36,821 nt of DNA, taken from contig CAJOGQ010000015.1 of NCBI GenBank assembly GCA_905234125.1, positions 1 to 36,821 of the forward strand, written 5' to 3'. The stretch's first letter is position 1. Every line of letters starts with the position of its first letter. This document shows positions 30,514 through 36,821 of the stretch, one piece after another. The DNA comes from an uncultured Bacteroidaceae bacterium. GTDB lineage: Bacteria; Bacteroidota; Bacteroidia; Bacteroidales; Bacteroidaceae. A program made the translations under genes and the position numbers. A model generated the notes under the pieces. It saw only the letters and a program-made list of their open reading frames with translations, ran no database searches and was not told the DNA's origin.

Positions 30514-31440
30514 TCAGTCCTTTGTCAGGATGTGGTCATGCTTGAGCATCTGTGCCACAGCATCGATAATGCCATTCACATAACCCGCACTCTTGGGCGT
30601 GCTGTAGTACTTGGCTATCTCCACGTATTCGTTAATGGTGACGGAGATGGGAATCAGCGGAAAACTAAGCAACTCGGCCACAGCTATCTGCATGATGATG
30701 ACATCCATGTAGGCCAGACGGTTGAACTCCCAGTTCTTCACACACTTGCCAATCAGCGAACGGTAGTACTCGTCGTTCATGATGGTTCGACGGAAAAGAC
30801 GTGTGGCAAACTCCTGATCCTCGATGTCCTTGTACTCAGGCACGAGTTCCTGATTAGCGCCGTTAGCAGGGTCAAAACGCTTGATGGTCTTGAGCACGAA
30901 CGTATCCACCACATCGCGGTCGTCGTTCCAGTAAAGACTCTGCTCCTCAAGGATGTCGTCAATGCGCTCATCCTTCATGACGATGTTTTTGTAGAGTTTG
31001 CGCCACAGTTCACGATCGTCAGCGTAAGTCACCTTGTCCATCGCCATATATTCTTTGTAGTAGTCACTCTGAATGATGTCGTTGTAGAGCTTCTTCACGT
31101 AGTCCATATCATTGTCCCACGTTTTTTTCTTCGTATCCACAAACTCCTGCAGCTGGTGGTTGATTTCCAACTGCGACGTGAACTGGTTGTCAGCAAAACG
31201 ATGGCTCACCACCTCATCGATGTGACCCACCTTGTTCATGTGCTCCTTGTGCTCCACCTGCAGGAATGCGTAGCGAGCCACGCTCACCATCAGCAAGAGC
31301 ATGTAGTTATAGAGATCGTATGCTTTGGAGAGGCTGAAAAGGAGTTCCTTTTCTGCTGTGTCTATGTTTTTGCCACTGTTCTGATAAAATGCGTACATGA
31401 GTTGCACGATTTTCAGACGAATGAGTGTACGGTTAATCAT
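30514..31440 (-). CDS. nusB: Transcription antitermination protein NusB, long Bacteroidetes form
   Basis: 308 residues, about twice the E. coli protein. The N-terminal two thirds are helical (MINRTLIRLKIVQLMYAFYQ). The C-terminal third carries the recognisable NusB fold region (RLAYMDVIIMQIAVAELL, then ISVTINEYVEIAKYYSTPKS and YVNGIIDAVAQML). It binds boxA RNA with NusE during rRNA transcription. The long form is normal for Bacteroidetes. It heads the minus-strand operon; a perfect -7 box (TAAATTTG) lies at 31555-31548. Confidence 0.92.
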   Translation of the reverse strand: MINRTLIRLKIVQLMYAFYQNSGKNIDTAEKELLFSLSKAYDLYNYMLLLMVSVARYAFLQVEHKEHMNKVGHIDEVVSHRFADNQFTSQLEINHQLQEFVDTKKKTWDNDMDYVKKLYNDIIQSDYYKEYMAMDKVTYADDRELWRKLYKNIVMKDERIDDILEEQSLYWNDDRDVVDTFVLKTIKRFDPANGANQELVPEYKDIEDQEFATRLFRRTIMNDEYYRSLIGKCVKNWEFNRLAYMDVIIMQIAVAELLSFPLIPISVTINEYVEIAKYYSTPKSAGYVNGIIDAVAQMLKHDHILTKD

Positions 31441-31547
31441 AAGTCAAAAAACTCTTTTTTTGTATGCCTTAATATATATAATATGTATGGTTTGTCAAAG
31501 TCACGAGTTGATTTGTTAACTTTTGCTTTGCTTGCTTATTTTGCGTG

Positions 31548-31555
31548 CAAATTTA
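31548..31555 (-). promoter_or_regulatory. -7 element of the nusB operon
   Basis: TAAATTTG on the minus strand, about 108 bp before the nusB start, with no clear -33 TTTG. It lies in the 261-bp divergent gap to the PUR-type gene. The rest of that gap is A/T-rich and holds only a weak plus-strand candidate (CTTG 31627-31630, CAATTTTG 31651-31658, 20 bp apart, one mismatch each). Confidence 0.45.
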
Positions 31556-31701
31556 GTGATTTTCTATGAAAAATGAGGTGTTTTTGCATGAATGATTGCT
31601 CGAAAGTGAAAAAAACGCTCATTTTTCTTGTGTAAACCAAAAAAAAGCAACAATTTTGTGGCAGTTTTTCAAATCAATTAAATTAACAACAAAGATTTTT
31701 T

Positions 31702-32115
31702 ATGGGTGAGACAGAAAAAGACTTGATCTACTCAGAAGGTATCAAGGCTGGCAAGCGCATCTACTATTTTGATGTGAAGCAGAGCAGAAACGGTGACAAG
31801 TACATTGCCATTACGGAGAGTAAGAAAATCAATGAGGGAACAATGGACAACCCTCACTTTGTGTTTGAGAAGCACAAGCTGTTCTTATATAAGGAGGACT
31901 ATGAAAAGTTTGTTGATGCTCTGAATCGTACTCTTGGTGTGGCCAAGGGCGAAATCTCTGTGGCAGAACTTCGTGCACAACAAGAGGCCACTCAGGAGGC
32001 TGAAGCACCTGCTCAGACAGAAGCATCATCCGAACCCGCTGTTGCTGCAGAACCTGCTGAAGAGGACAAGAGTGAGAAGAAGAGCTTCCTTGACAAAATG
32101 AAGGACATCTTCTAA
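31702..32115 (+). CDS. DUF3276/PUR-domain nucleic-acid-binding protein
   Basis: 137 residues. Residues 1-80 match the bacterial PUR-alpha-like family: IYSEGIKAGKRIYYFDVKQS, then GDKYIAITESKK and HFVFEKHKLFLYKEDYEKF. PUR repeats bind single-stranded DNA or RNA. Residues 90-125 are a low-complexity A/E/P/T linker, and the end (KKSFLDKMKDIF) forms a short amphipathic helix. It is cytoplasmic and widespread in Bacteroidetes; its cellular target is not known to me. A hairpin terminator candidate follows. Confidence 0.85.
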   Translation: MGETEKDLIYSEGIKAGKRIYYFDVKQSRNGDKYIAITESKKINEGTMDNPHFVFEKHKLFLYKEDYEKFVDALNRTLGVAKGEISVAELRAQQEATQEAEAPAQTEASSEPAVAAEPAEEDKSEKKSFLDKMKDIF

Positions 32116-32132
32116 AACATGTGAATTGGTGG

Positions 32133-32161
32133 CTTTGCCCGTTCCAAAAGGACGGGTAAAG
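32133..32161 (+). terminator. Hairpin after the PUR-type gene
   Basis: The arms 32133-32145 and 32150-32161 pair (CTTT-g-CCCGT-t-CC with GG-ACGGG-t-AAAG) around an AAAA loop. There is one bulged T and no clear T-run, so termination may be incomplete. Confidence 0.45.
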
Positions 32162-32200
32162 TCATCTAATCATTCTTCAAAACTGAAAAAAACGGGTAAA

Positions 32201-32234
32201 ACTTTTGTGGGTTCCCGCAAAAGTCGTACCTTTG
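32201..32234 (+). promoter_or_regulatory. L25 promoter overlapped by a 24-bp dyad
   Basis: TTTG (32204-32207) and TACCTTTG (32227-32234) are 19 bp apart, a full consensus. A palindrome, ACTTTTGTGGG (32201-32211) with CCCGCAAAAGT (32214-32224), covers the -33 box and most of the spacer. Transcription would start near 32241, so the dyad is not in the L25 message and may be an operator. Confidence 0.65.
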
Positions 32235-32240
32235 TGCCGC

Positions 32241-32367
32241 TTTTTTGGGCAACACCTTAGCCCTCCCCCTGTTTGGAGGGTCTTCGTGTGATGGCGAATT
32301 AAGCGCAATAGAGGGGAGTATGCTCCTCCAAAGACTTAATTTATAGTAACACAAAAACATTTCAACA
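32241..32367 (+). promoter_or_regulatory. Structured 5' leader of the L25 gene
   Basis: About 127 nt. First hairpin: CCCTCC (32261-32266) with GGAGGG (32275-32280); this piece resembles the ends of the palindromic element in menG. Second structure: an outer AATTAAG/CTTAATT stem, with GAGGGGAG/CTCCTC inside, between about 32296 and 32342. Self-regulation by the ribosomal protein is possible but only inferred. Confidence 0.4.
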
Positions 32368-32970
32368 ATGAAAGAAATCACAATCAATGCCCAGACTCGT
32401 ACAGAGTATGGCAAGAAGGCGAGCAAAGAACTTCGCCGTGCAGGCCAGGTTCCTGCTGTGTTTTATGGTGTGGAGAAGGACGAGAAGGGTCTTCCCGTAG
32501 CCAAGTCTATCAAAGTGTCAGAGAAGGAACTTGCCAAGTTGCTCTACACGCCTAACGTGTACATCGTCAACCTCAATGTTGACGGCAAGTCAGTAAAGGC
32601 CATCCTGAAGGATCTTCAGTGCGACTTCGTAACTGACCGTCCAGTACACGTTGACTTCTACCAGATCACAGAGGACAAGCCTGTTGTGTTCGAGATTCCT
32701 GTGAAGCTCAATGGTCTTGCTGAAGGTGTACGTGCCGGTGGTAAGCTCACCCTCAACGTGCGCAAGCTCGCTGTGAAGGCTCTCTACACTCAGTTCCCAG
32801 ACACCCTCGACATCGATGTGACCAACCTCGCATTGGGCAAGTCCATGAAGGTGGGCGAGCTCTCTTACGAAGGTCTCGAAATCATCACCTCGAAGGAAGT
32901 GGTTGTTTGCGCTGTTCGCATGACTCGTGCCGCTCGTGCAGCCGCCGCTGAGTCTGAATCTGCAGAGTAA
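32368..32970 (+). CDS. rplY: Ribosomal protein L25, long (Ctc/TL5) form
   Basis: 200 residues, with the 5S-rRNA-binding L25 domain first ([20 protein letters not shown], then VPAVFYG, and the end near residue 95 with HVDFYQI). The second, beta-rich Ctc domain (about 96-185) contains [18 protein letters not shown]-like residues ([18 protein letters not shown]). The C-terminus is alanine-rich ([15 protein letters not shown]). It binds 5S rRNA in the large ribosomal subunit. It has its own strong promoter and a long leader, and is followed by pth, a common pairing. Confidence 0.96.
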
Positions 32971-32992
32971 TTCCACACAAGATTGAACCTAT

Positions 32993-33032
32993 GAGGGTGT
33001 ATCGGCGGTCGTCAGACCCTTGGTACACTCTC
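32993..33032 (+). terminator. Hairpin after the L25 gene
   Basis: GAGGGTGTA (32993-33001) pairs with TACACTCTC (33024-33032) through one G-T pair; a small GGTC/GACC stem lies inside. A T-rich stretch follows. It may end or weaken transcription between L25 and pth. Confidence 0.4.
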
Positions 33033-33119
33033 TTCATTTGTATCATATTACACATTATATATAAGATGTGGCTAATAGACTGGTTGCTACACCGCAAAAC
33101 CGAAACGGAAGACAATAGC

Positions 33120-33683
33120 ATGAAATATTTGATCGTTGGACTTGGCAACATCGGCAGTAAATACCAAGGAACCCGCCACAACATCGGATTCCGACTCATC
33201 GACGCCTTTGCCAAGAAGCAGGGCGTGGAATGGATGGACAAGCGCTATGGAGCCATTGCCCAGACACGTGTGAAGAACGCAGAACTCACCCTCCTCAAGC
33301 CCTCCACCTACATGAATCTCTCTGGTCAGGCCGTTCGCTACTGGGCACAACACGAGAAGATTCCAGTGGAGAACATCCTCGTGCTGGTGGATGACCTCAG
33401 CCTGCCCGTCGGCAAAATTCGCATGCGTGGCAGTGGTAGCGATGGCGGACATAATGGGCTGAAGAACATCGCCTCGTGCATGATGACCCAAAACTATGCA
33501 CGCATCAAATTTGGCATTGGCAACGATTTCCCCAAGGGAACTCAAATAGATTTCGTGCTTGGCCAGTTCACTGACGAGGACGACAAACTCATCGAAGAGA
33601 AACTTGACTATGTGGGCGAGATGATCAAGAGTTTCTGCCTGCAGGGACTTGATCGCACGATGAACCAATACAACAAGAAATAG
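33120..33683 (+). CDS. pth: Peptidyl-tRNA hydrolase
   Basis: Frees tRNA from peptidyl-tRNAs dropped by the ribosome. The 187-residue length is standard. Key residues are N10 (VGLGN), catalytic H20 (GTRHNIGF), N66 (STYMNLSG), D91 (LVDDLSLP) and N112 (GGHNGLKNI). The start at 33120 gives [10 protein letters not shown], the family's usual N-terminus. The frame is open for 43 more codons through the hairpin region after L25, but that stretch is not like any pth. It is followed one base later by the S4 protein gene. Confidence 0.95.
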
Positions 33684-33684
33684 C

Positions 33685-34116
33685 ATGGAAGCAAGACTCG
33701 ATAAATGGCTGTGGGCAGCTCGCATCTTCAAGACGCGCTCCATAGCAGCCGACGCCTGTAAGAACGGGCGCATCACCATAGCTGGCGTGAAGCAGAAAGC
33801 CTCCAAGATGATCAAGGAAGGTGACATCATCGAGGTGCGCAAGCCTCCCATCACCTACGCATTCCGTGTGCTCAAGGCCATCCAGAACCGTGTGGGGGCT
33901 AAATTCGTGCCAGAGGTGTTAGAGAATGTCACTTCGCCTGACCAACTCGAACTTCTTGAGATGAACCGCATCAGTGGTTTCGTTGGCAGAGCACGTGGTA
34001 CAGGCCGTCCCACCAAGAAAGAACGACGCGAATTGGATGATTTCATCCAGCCTGCTTTCTTTGGCGACTTCGACTTCGATTTTGACGATGATGACGAGGA
34101 GGATGAAGAAGGTTAA
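33685..34116 (+). CDS. S4-domain RNA-binding protein, Hsp15-like
   Basis: 143 residues. The S4 domain is at 1-60 (MEARLDKWLWAARIFKTRSI, with GRITIAGVKQKASKMIKEGD). The start is the typical HslR pattern R-L-D-K-W-L-W. Hsp15 recycles stalled 50S subunits carrying peptidyl-tRNA, which fits the place one base after pth. The middle part is basic (RARGTGRPTKKERREL). The end is a run of aspartate and phenylalanine, then acid (FGDFDFDFDDDDEEDEEG), unlike E. coli Hsp15. Confidence 0.9.
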   Translation: MEARLDKWLWAARIFKTRSIAADACKNGRITIAGVKQKASKMIKEGDIIEVRKPPITYAFRVLKAIQNRVGAKFVPEVLENVTSPDQLELLEMNRISGFVGRARGTGRPTKKERRELDDFIQPAFFGDFDFDFDDDDEEDEEG

Positions 34117-34169
34117 CAAACTTCAATAGATTTTTTCTCTTTTACTTTTCTCTTTTCGCCGAATATTCG

Positions 34170-34177
34170 TACCTTTG
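34170..34177 (+). promoter_or_regulatory. -7 element four bases before phoH
   Basis: TACCTTTG ends at 34177 and the phoH ATG begins at 34182. A start point at the usual distance falls on or next to the ATG. The upstream part is T-rich but lacks a TTTG at -33. Confidence 0.5.
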
Positions 34178-34181
34178 CACC

Positions 34182-35159
34182 ATGATTGAGAAAATGATTG
34201 TTTTGGAGGACATTGACCTCGTAACGTTCTATGGGGTGCAGAATGTTCACCTGCAAATGATTAAGGCACTGTATCCGAAGCTCAGGATTGTGGCTCGTGG
34301 CAACATCATCAAGGTGATGGGCGACGAGGAGGAGATGTGTGCGTTTGAGGAAAACATCCTGAAGATGCAGGAGCATTGCGCCAAGTACAACTCGCTGAAT
34401 GAGGAGGACATCCTGCAGATTGTGAAGGGAGAAGTACCCAACGGACACGCAACAGACGGAAACGCCATCTGCTACAGCGTGACGGGCAAGGCAATTGCAC
34501 CACGTTCTGAGAATCAGAAGACGCTGGTGGATGCCTACCACGACTGCGACATGCTCTTCGCCATCGGCCCTGCAGGTTCTGGCAAGACGTACGTATCGAT
34601 TGCGCTGGCCGTTAGAGCCTTGAAAAACAAGGAAATACGAAAGATCATCCTGTGCCGACCAGCTGTGGAGGCTGGTGAGAAGTTGGGATTCCTGCCTGGC
34701 GACATGCGCGAGAAGATTGACCCCTATCTGCAACCACTCTACGATGCCTTGCAGGATATGATTCCTGCACAGAAACTGACAGAGTATATGGAGCAGAACG
34801 TCATCCAGATAGCCCCATTGGCTTTCATGCGAGGCAGGACGCTGAACGATGCTGTCGTCATTCTCGATGAGGCACAGAACACGACCACCCAGCAAATCAA
34901 GATGTTCCTCACCCGCATGGGACAAAACACGAAGATGATCATCACAGGCGACCTGACACAGATAGACCTGCCACGCAATGTGAAGAGTGGACTGAAGGAG
35001 GCAAAAGAAGTGCTGAAGGACGTGAAGGGCATCGCCTTTGTGGAGATGGACGAAAGAGACATCGTGCGACACAAGTTGGTGACGAGAATCGTGAATGCGT
35101 ATCATCAGTATGAGAGCGAGACGAAATATCCACTGTTCAACGAAAACAAGACTGAATAA
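34182..35159 (+). CDS. PhoH-family ATPase
   Basis: 325 residues. The N-terminal part is about 1-100. The PhoH ATPase core follows: Walker A GPAGSGKT (129-136), then [20 protein letters not shown], and Walker [12 protein letters not shown] (about 226-236). The conserved RGRTLNDA and [10 protein letters not shown] are present. PhoH-like proteins are linked to RNA metabolism and often stand near ybeY, which is not seen here. MIEK at the first ATG looks like the N-terminus I know from relatives; ATG 34194 is the alternative. It is followed by purC after 17 bp. Confidence 0.92.
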
Positions 35160-35176
35160 TTAAATATTGTAAGACA

Positions 35177-36124
35177 ATGGCTAAAGCTTTAACAAGAACG
35201 GATTTCAACTTCCCAGGACAGAAGGAAGTGTATCACGGCAAAGTCCGTGACGTGTACAACATCAACGACGACCTGATGGTAATGGTCGCTACCGACCGCA
35301 TCTCTGCCTTCGACGTGGTGCTTCCCAAGGGCATTCCTTTCAAGGGTCAGGTGCTGAATCAGATTGCAGCAAAGTTCCTCGATGCCTCTGCCGACATCGT
35401 TCCCAACTGGAAACTCGCCACACCCGACCCTATGGTGACTGTGGGTCTGAAATGTGAAGGTTTCCGTGTGGAGATGATCATTCGTGGTTATTTGACTGGC
35501 TCTGCCTGGCGCGAATACAAGGCTGGCAATCGCACACTCTGTGGCATCACCCTGCCTGATGGCATGAAGGAAAATCAGAAGTTCCCAAAGCCCATCATCA
35601 CCCCCACCACCAAGGCTGACGAAGGTCACGACGAGAACATCTCGAAGGAAGAAATCATCGCTCAGGGTCTGGTAAGCAAGGAGGACTATGAGGTGATGGA
35701 GAAGTACACCTATGCCCTCTTCGACCTCGGCACGAAGATTGCGAAAGAAAAGGGACTGATCCTTGTGGACACGAAGTATGAGTTTGGCAAGCGTGACGGC
35801 AAGGTCTATCTCATCGATGAAGTTCACACGCCTGACTCCAGCCGTTATTTCTATGCTGACGGCTACGAGGAGAAGTTTGCTAAGGGCGAGCCTCAGAAGC
35901 AACTCTCGAAGGAATTTGTGCGCCAGTGGCTCATCGACCACAATTTCATGAACCAGCCTGGTCAGGTGATGCCAGAAATCACAGACGAGTATGCTGAGTC
36001 GGTCAGCGACCGCTACATTGAACTCTACGAGCACATCATCGGCGAGAAGTTCGTGAAGGAGACGAGCGACGAGGACATCGCCAAGCGCATCGAGAAGAAT
36101 GTTCTTAATTATTTGAATAATTAG
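35177..36124 (+). CDS. purC: SAICAR synthetase
   Basis: Joins CAIR and aspartate with ATP in purine synthesis. 315 residues, the longer Bacteroidetes/eukaryote-like form (E. coli has 237). Motifs: [54 protein letters not shown], and [14 protein letters not shown] (about 216-229), the catalytic metal-binding segment. It seems to share a transcript with phoH, 17 bp upstream. No other purine gene is near. Confidence 0.96.
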
Positions 36125-36209
36125 GAATGTGGAATTAGGAATGAGGAATTGATACTTTGTCAACAGCAGAACATTCCATTCCTCATTCCAAATTCCTAAT
36201 TCCTCATTC
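36120..36209. repeat. Imperfect inverted repeat of GGAATTAGGAATGAGG type between purC and menG
   Basis: The left arm (36120-36151) contains AATTAGGAATGTGGAATTAG. The right arm (36173-36209) is nearly its reverse complement, with about 25 nt between. Each arm also repeats the unit GGAAT(T/G)AGGAAT within itself. It fills almost the whole 88-bp gap and could act as a terminator-like stem after purC. A T/C-rich relative lies at 14967-14996. Confidence 0.6.
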
Positions 36210-36212
36210 AGT

Positions 36213-36821
36213 ATGTACCAGCAGGAGCAGATAAAGCCATACGGCGACGAAGGCACGAAGCGTGAACAGGTGGAGCAGATGTTCGATAACATCGCCCACT
36301 CTTACGACACGCTCAACCACACGCTCAGCTTCGGCATTGACCGAATCTGGAGGAAAGCCGCCATTGACCATCTGAAAAAGACCCTCCCCTCACCCTCCCT
36401 ACAGGGAGGGAGTAGTATCTCTGCTAACAAAGAAACAAGCGGACAAGGTAACTGCCCCCTCCCTTTAGGGAGGGCAGGGGGAGGGTCTTCCATCCTCGAC
36501 ATTGCCACAGGCACTGGCGACTTCGCTATCCTTGCTTATGAAAAGCTGCACCCTCAACGCATTGTTGGTTGCGACATCAGCGAGGGAATGATGGACATCG
36601 GACGCAAGAAGGTGGCTGAACTGGGACTCTCCGACAAGATCACTTTCCAGAATGAGGATTGTGCCCACATGTCGTTTGCCGACAACACCTTCGATGCCGT
36701 CATTTCAGCTTTTGCCCTGCGCAACTTCCAGAACCTCGACGAGTGTTTGAAGGAGATGCATCGAGTGCTGAAAGAGGACGGACACTTATCTGTTGTGGAT
36801 CTCTGCACCCCTGTCTCGTTT
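36213..36821 (+). CDS. menG: Demethylmenaquinone methyltransferase with in-frame repeat insertion (partial, runs off the window)
   Basis: The first 203 residues are in the window. The enzyme methylates demethylmenaquinone with SAM, the last step of menaquinone synthesis. The N-terminus is normal ([39 protein letters not shown]). SAM motif I is [12 protein letters not shown] (94-105), and later motifs are [18 protein letters not shown] and [16 protein letters not shown]. Between K56 and S92 lie 37 extra residues, rich in P, G and S, encoded by a palindromic element (36378-36489) that keeps the frame. Relatives have only a few residues there. Whether the enzyme works is not known from the sequence. 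The reading frame is open to the edge. Confidence 0.9.
36378..36489. repeat. 112-bp palindromic element inside menG
   Basis: The two ends are near-perfect reverse complements (AAGACCCTCCCC... at 36378, ...GGGGGAGGGTCTT to 36489), about 33 bp each with one indel and a few changes. Each arm has its own inner palindrome (CCCTCCCTACAGGGAGGG at 36393-36410; CCCTCCCTTTAGGGAGGG). In RNA this gives two hairpins or one long stem. No stop codon occurs in the menG frame. Confidence 0.85.

Follow-up and report, generated by a model that had tools for sequence, protein, structure and literature searches.

A palindromic element within menG of a Bacteroidaceae bacterium is probably a short copy of a palindrome-ended, DUF559-encoding mobile element

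The Rickettsia palindromic elements (RPEs) were reportedly described by Ogata et al. in 2000 and 2002. In the accessible parts of three papers, RPEs are dispersed palindromes of ~100 to 150 bp that belong to several families and lie in frame in unrelated conserved genes, with analogues in Wolbachia and Methanocaldococcus jannaschii (PMC2229807, PMC10969869, PMC2996958). As far as the available excerpts go, the GTAG/CGTC REPs and REPtrons are likewise palindromes, some of them within genes (including repair genes such as uvrA) but mostly intergenic; RAYT is their proposed mobilizer, although CGTC REPs reportedly have no dedicated transposase (PMC3733652). In the excerpts at hand, PARCELs are coding sequences with dyad symmetry that are apparently mobile and occur as domain repeats, largely in membrane proteins (PMC2996958), MITEs are short inverted-repeat copies that have both ends in common with a longer coding copy (PMC2229807, PMC10969869), and the Vsr-like (EDxHD) homing endonucleases include I-Bth0305I (PMC3943268).

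Here, we analyzed a 36,821-nucleotide stretch of DNA from an uncultured Bacteroidaceae bacterium (the window), which ends within menG, a gene of the vitamin-K pathway. The menG reading frame starts at position 36213 and stays open through a palindromic element, termed family A (Table 1), up to the window end; its best NCBIfam model was UbiE (E 7.2e-49), whose whole-protein cut-off the score does not reach, as the window end truncates the gene. The element is an imperfect palindrome with 39-nt inverted arms (85% complementary) around a 34-nt gap, and each arm holds one 18-nt inner palindrome. As RNA, it folds into a single long stem-loop (-76.7 kcal/mol, z -8.8) that none of 200 shuffles matched, and as DNA it reaches -34.8 kcal/mol (z -6.3). 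Arm complementarity together with RNA folding relative to shuffles argues against a chance palindrome, and with 112 bp and a stable stem-loop (z -8.8), the element is a palindrome of the 100- to 150-bp kind described for RPEs. A sequence-only reading had proposed exactly such a palindrome, with inverted ends, inner palindromes, and a menG frame open on both sides, and our analyses bear it out.

Table 1. Positions of the palindromic element, its parts, and its host gene in the window
Feature	Position	Strand	Remark
Family A palindromic element (112 bp, MITE-like)	36378..36489	+	in frame; menG codons 56-92 plus one base
Left arm: end AAGACCCTCC and inner hairpin	36378..36416	+	
Right arm: inner hairpin and end GGAGGGTCTT	36451..36489	+	
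Left inner palindrome CCCTCCCTACAGGGAGGG	36393..36410	.	
Right inner palindrome CCCTCCCTTTAGGGAGGG	36457..36474	.	
Asymmetric center between arms	36417..36450	+	place occupied by the DUF559 gene in the long copy
Host menG/ubiE (demethylmenaquinone methyltransferase)	36213..36821	+	truncated by window end; UbiE model

Upon reading the menG site in 15 loci of the genus, we found the full element in our genome only; nine loci carry a short plain linker (G009, G034, G017, G010, G003, G002, G014, G025, and G029), so relatives do not all share the insert, and five carry a different GC-rich insert or remnant (G020, G013, G026, G006, and G023). The AAIDHL-to-LDIATG distance is 40 residues in the window MenG, 37 of them element-derived, versus 10 residues in the nearest relative by MenG identity (G009). 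Thus, the 37 added residues of the sequence-only reading are present, but on balance MenG is 30 residues longer; it lacks about seven host codons relative to G009, and the insert is for this reason not a clean 37-residue insertion. Host codons are likewise replaced rather than simply interrupted at ArgRS, and a search for target duplications, comparing filled with other sites of CTP synthase, MenG, and ArgRS, met diverged flanks and replaced codons. The ArgRS site was read in 10 of 13 fetched relatives' loci, and the insert was present in none of them. A 37-residue insert is far too short for an intein, and an Rfam scan of window positions 31000 to 36821 yielded no match at gathering thresholds, and hence no self-splicing intron of the kind carried by homing elements. 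Upstream of menG, the spacer following a purC-like gene (36120 to 36210) is AT-rich and contains ATTCCTAATTCCTCATTCC-type repeats in both orientations; translated text similar to this spacer also precedes menG in G009 (L034).

A search of our genome (84% complete) revealed further full copies on contigs C18 and C39 and partial copies on C10, C58, C76, C51, and C78, i.e., several dispersed copies per genome, as is the case for RPEs; the expectation of several copies was correct, and the concern that the element might have no other genomic copies is removed by those on several of our own contigs. Pfam identified the hosts RecG, ABC transporter, UvrA, MnmA, and U32 peptidase, and by reading we recognized a TPR-like protein, nadA, and a sufE-like gene. 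The supposed shortened relative in the L25 leader (32261 to 32284) did not hold up: the genome search did not recover it at E<=10, and the matches there in a permissive local search were no longer than 10 to 11 nt (E 0.72 to 2.8). Beyond our genome, the hairpin CCCTCCCTNYAGGGAGGG occurs in at least 19 of 45 genus genomes, with at least 50 copies in G037 (at least 53 when counted on the other strand), and its reversed control had no match in any genus genome, among the matches listed. The exact end-plus-hairpin pattern matched 40 stretches across 84,980 species genomes, all in records of Bacteroidales, Bacteroidaceae, or Prevotellaceae bacteria, several of them from rumen, reticulum, or reindeer. 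Carriage in the plasmid or phage collections was considered as well and dismissed, as the family A element had no match there at E 1e-5. Among the matches listed, G037 is the richest in CCCTCCCTNYAGGGAGGG hairpins, those fetched lying mostly outside genes; one of its regions (G037:C111:17845-18111) holds five hairpins in tandem within 270 bases.

To assess coding position, we trained a codon model on 316 long ORFs, used it to score coding-likeness, and defined near-full copies as those of 95 nt or more. The 50 unique near-full copies come mainly from the DNA-searched genomes (our own, G003, G002, G007, G017, and G005) and partly from pattern matches; 23 are from the single genome G003, and G028 and G041 were hardly sampled. 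Thirty-nine of the 50 lie in sense orientation and in one and the same frame within ORFs of at least 150 aa that have coding-like flanks, and the peptide of this frame includes ...PLPxGRxxGGS. One copy is antisense (L127, in a CobB/CobQ-like protein), six are too short or under the coding score (L091, L087, and L122 nonetheless lie in long sense ORFs), and four have no open spanning frame. When all 115 unique family A places were considered, 36 were in frame and had coding sequence to the left and right, 42 had a coding flank on one side, and 32 had none; the others comprised three frameshifts (L126 and L009, which read as gene junctions, and L097), one place with opposite strands, and one with the same frame and a stop. 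Two of the 36 in-frame places lack the usual peptide, namely, the antisense copy L127 and the fragment L077. The 12 regions fetched from G037 hold mostly short hairpin copies outside coding ORFs. Because one antisense frame is free of stops in 31 of the 40 tested copies, frame openness alone hardly explains the 39:1 sense bias, and the copies are not independent, because several are orthologous. In dinucleotide shuffles, the frame stays open in 17% of cases per copy.

For the 40 alignable copies among the 45 with a recognizable start, the peptide is well conserved, and length differences preserve the frame. Third codon positions account for 64 of 119 single changes in the center, and first positions lead in the arms (17/35 and 44/87); the rough omega is 0.68 overall. 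Judged by these substitutions, coding constraint in the arms is not separable from palindrome constraint, and third positions do not predominate there. These data bear on whether the insert is skipped by translational bypass, or removed from RNA or protein, such that MenG would be made without it. The mRNA would indeed carry a very stable hairpin, yet a skipped element need not be open, whereas 39 of 50 copies are open in one frame; moreover, third-position changes lead in the center, and the Rfam scan described above also speaks against removal. On account of the frame and the third-position excess, we rejected bypass as highly improbable, and we infer from the sequences that the insert is translated in its host proteins.

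According to Pfam, full or partial family A copies reside in CTP synthase, ArgRS, AlaRS, UvrA, RecG, MutS2, RsgA, RlmN, a transcription-repair factor (UvrB_inter + CarD_TRCF), a Mur ligase/alanine racemase fusion, MurB, DAP epimerase, ATP synthase (PF00231, which we take to be the gamma subunit), MnmA, and RNase H; the hosts L107, L069, and L149 matched no family in a Pfam scan. In-frame insertion into unrelated conserved genes, as in RPEs, is thus found here (39/50 copies; hosts by Pfam), and the in-frame dispersed copies support the proposal that the menG insert is a comparable protein-coding palindromic element. The records that carry the pattern are uncultured or MAG, and the genus genomes are drafts, which would suit an assembly artifact in which repeats were mis-joined into genes of metagenome-assembled genomes. 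We rejected this reading as exceedingly improbable, because the same (orthologous) host sites are filled in several separately assembled genomes with diverged flanks, and reading frames are preserved.

Two further families, B and C, behave like family A, i.e., they lie in frame in genes. Family B was detected in at least 28 and family C in 11 of the 45 genus genomes. Of the top-matching copies that reach 60 nt or more, coding-like ORFs hold 24/25 in family B and 23/25 in family C, in both orientations; this sample is biased, as the queries were themselves coding copies. Likewise, 19 of 20 chosen longer B variants lie in coding-like ORFs, and the twentieth reads through a SpoU-like protein (by reading) but is under the threshold. 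Family B is lineage-restricted within the bacterial family, because its end pattern (one mismatch allowed) was found in 26 of 399 genomes and 4 of 30 genera. Many B-type ends occur in a second genus of the family (g21; genomes G126, G141, and G281).

The two partial matches on contig C76 (2029 to 2070 and 2495 to 2535) proved to be the two ends of one 507-bp palindrome-ended element between nadA and mnmA (C76:2029-2535, L006), which encodes a complete 123-aa DUF559 protein (E 3.9e-34). Its left end is 90% identical to bases 2 to 42 of the menG element (over 41 nt) and its right end 93% identical to bases 70 to 111 (over 42 nt); thus, as in MITEs, both ends of the short copy are common to a longer coding element in the same genome. 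By reading, nadA ends within the left hairpin, and mnmA may start within the right part. The same arrangement recurs in G026 (L074, 505 bp), and a long form of G003 (L128) has an entire short A copy for its left end. Long forms also exist for the other families: a 533-bp form in G012 (L267) has B-type ends (DUF559 E 2.6e-35), and one in G014 (L253) has C-type ends plus an extra C copy (DUF559 E 1.4e-32), with a relative in G003 that is split across two loci (L137 and L138). The right end of family B differs between short and long forms. Six DUF559 places were found by local search of the fetched genus loci, and A-, B-, or C-type ends flank each of them on both sides; all six lie in loci fetched for repeats, and the co-occurrence is thus subject to ascertainment bias. 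The inverted-repeat score of four of five long forms is far above that of local controls, and that of L253 slightly so (25 vs 22). Against PDB, the C76 DUF559 protein is close to 3hrl, "Endonuclease-Like Protein" (E 1.6e-19), and weakly similar to 3r3p, "Mobile intron protein" (E 0.0031), which we take to be I-Bth0305I; DUF559 itself is, we assume, labeled Vsr-like.

On this evidence, the menG insert is probably a short, non-autonomous, MITE-like copy of a palindrome-ended, DUF559-encoding mobile element, which would have moved via DUF559 and been kept where it is in frame. As judged from the sequences, the DUF559 enzyme may move these elements, and short copies presumably use it in trans. In such a scheme, the DUF559 endonuclease would cut DNA, in cis or in trans, whereupon element DNA would be copied or moved to new sites. 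Gene-breaking insertions would be lost by selection; the survivors would keep an open, unshifted frame and occupy permissive linkers, where they would be translated as a Pro/Gly/Ser-rich loop of little or no function. An occupied linker could later be re-invaded, swapped between families by recombination at similar ends, or emptied by deletion.

Alternatively, the elements could be REP/RPE-type repeats moved by RAYT (a Y1 tyrosine transposase), with DUF559 as a mere passenger. Their shape and size resemble REP dimers, of which RAYTs are the proposed mobilizer according to the part of the source at hand (PMC3733652), and Y1_Tnp matches exist in some genomes, the strong ones in L349 (G037) and L350 (G020) lying between inverted repeats; RAYT elements thus also exist in the genus. 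However, those repeats are of other sequence, not one of the nine Y1 loci is enclosed by A, B, or C ends (i.e., no RAYT was found flanked by these repeats, as it would be in a REPtron), and DUF559 genes do sit between such ends. Moreover, Y1_Tnp was found at E<=0.001 in 3/9 genomes and 5/12 others, and it is missing from G002 (99% complete) and from our genome (84% complete), both of which carry family A. RAYT is therefore not supported as the mover, and we regard this alternative as unlikely. One CCCTCC hairpin lies ~600 bases from the Y1 gene of L349.

The 129 coding copies cluster into 77 host sites, of which 10 hold two or three families in different species (raw count). Such multi-family sites are found in CTP synthase (three families), UvrA, RecG, RsgA, ATP synthase, and a Mur ligase fusion; two others lie in MutS2 and two in other hosts. 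At the CTP synthase linker (15 loci read), family B is present in G025, G036, and G013, family C in G017 and G038, and G003 carries an A copy and, after it, the tail of a B copy; nine of the 15 loci have no such insert. One of these nine is G014 (L227), whose site, GAACAGACCCTCGACTTC, is exactly what a G003-like site would become through deletion between two of its CCCTC repeats. We compared 21 hand-picked, non-independent pairs from 10 sites, and in 18 of them, the two element copies resemble each other more closely than does either of the 300-nt flanks; in the G003/G017 pair, for instance, the element is 100% identical over 110 nt versus 83% and 91% for the flanks.

Recurrence at the same site could also stem from homing or gene conversion between orthologues, including interspecies transfer, rather than from repeated transposition. 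The weak similarity of DUF559 to the mobile-intron protein 3r3p, the A/B hybrid at CTP synthase, which suggests recombination, and the 18 of 21 chosen pairs in which the element outdoes its flanks all point in this direction. Still, 77 site clusters in many unrelated genes also require that elements reach new locations, and the presence of different families at a single site does not amount to simple homing of one element. We consider homing or conversion in place of transposition possible but somewhat doubtful; it may supplement movement of a DUF559-encoding element instead of replacing it.

The position of the inserts within host proteins was examined by phmmer against PDB chains, in which host alignments break at the insert: residues 183/236 of the CTP synthase query correspond to chain residues 128/132 around the insert, 236/268 to 259/260 for UvrA, and 424/470 to 434/446 for ArgRS, and in RsgA, the insert separates the GTPase domain from an N-terminal segment that matched weakly. 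These alignments fit linkers or turns at the sites of CTP synthase, UvrA, ArgRS, and RsgA. The surface loop that the sequence-only reading had envisaged in MenG is thereby supported only indirectly, through alignments of other hosts to solved structures.

With RPEs, compared by their published description in the parts available rather than by RPE sequences, the elements share palindrome size, dispersal, in-frame insertion, and the existence of several families. They differ in that they occur in another phylum and in a gut lineage, in a gene-borne share of 39/50 versus "nearly half" of RPEs in the available part of one source (PMC10969869), in that several families use single host sites, and in that long forms encode DUF559, whereas the accessible parts of the RPE literature mention no such parent (PMC2229807, PMC10969869, PMC2996958). 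Unlike in REPtrons, the enclosed gene is DUF559; unlike PARCELs, our elements are single inserts, many of them in housekeeping enzymes; unlike in MITEs, the long form encodes an endonuclease domain instead of a known transposase; and unlike Vsr-like homing endonucleases, to which the nuclease domain is weakly related and which also often reside in conserved genes, they have palindromic ends and many unrelated sites, and no intron or intein was seen. In the accessible portions of the open-licence literature, we found no prior report of such elements in Bacteroidota, nor of DUF559 or Vsr-like homing enzymes with palindromes or repeats. Coding palindromes as such are already known; the link to a likely DUF559 parent did not appear in the literature searched. 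The long form in the same genome, together with those of families B and C, provides a concrete, testable candidate for how coding palindromes spread, and the system suggests a role for DUF559, still of "unknown function" in Pfam. Selfish-looking DNA has repeatedly lengthened essential enzymes by ~30 to 40 residues at the same linkers, which amounts to a natural experiment in how proteins tolerate insertions and evolve.

Outside this lineage, tblastn with the DUF559 protein matched 40 plasmid records, of which we examined 23 loci; the 17 left out were further Azospirillum (6), Sinorhizobium (2), Pseudomonas aeruginosa (3), Neisseria (2), E. coli (2), Aliivibrio, and Streptomyces. Unlike the DUF559 places of the genus, these loci were not picked for repeats. 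Six of the first 12 outscored every one of 69 control windows. A score limit of 32 was then chosen with the results for these 12 already in view; under this limit, 15 of the 23 loci pass, being flanked by inverted repeats that outscore all 78 same-locus control windows. The other eight fell short: one (L372) beats its controls at a lower score, and seven do not. Some of these loci are related to one another: a single Sphingomonas strain contributed three, and hpa gene clusters harbor three of the four from Deinococcus. In Cyanobacteriota, Deinococcota, and Alphaproteobacteria, many repeats take the form of CCCCTCCC...GGGAGGGG hairpins, and one such hairpin, when searched, was found at six places within its plasmid. 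We judge the chances to be about even that DUF559 endonucleases with inverted GC-rich hairpins on both sides constitute a widespread, unnamed class of mobile elements in Bacteroidota, Cyanobacteriota, Deinococcota, and Alphaproteobacteria, whose deletion derivatives would be one origin of the GC-rich palindromic repeats that are so common and, within this gut genus, would have become protein-coding inserts that repeatedly colonize, and exchange at, permissive linkers of essential enzymes.

On the cyanobacterial plasmids of L354, L363, L368, L369, and L372, DUF559 lies beside BREX-like (PglX, BrxC), DUF1156, or DUF499 genes; one long annotated coding region of L369 contains both the DUF559 match and its inverted repeats. 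On other plasmids, DUF559 sits within operons, i.e., between sufB/sufC (L361), paaD/paaZ (L359), or transhydrogenase genes (L367), as expected of a mobile element.
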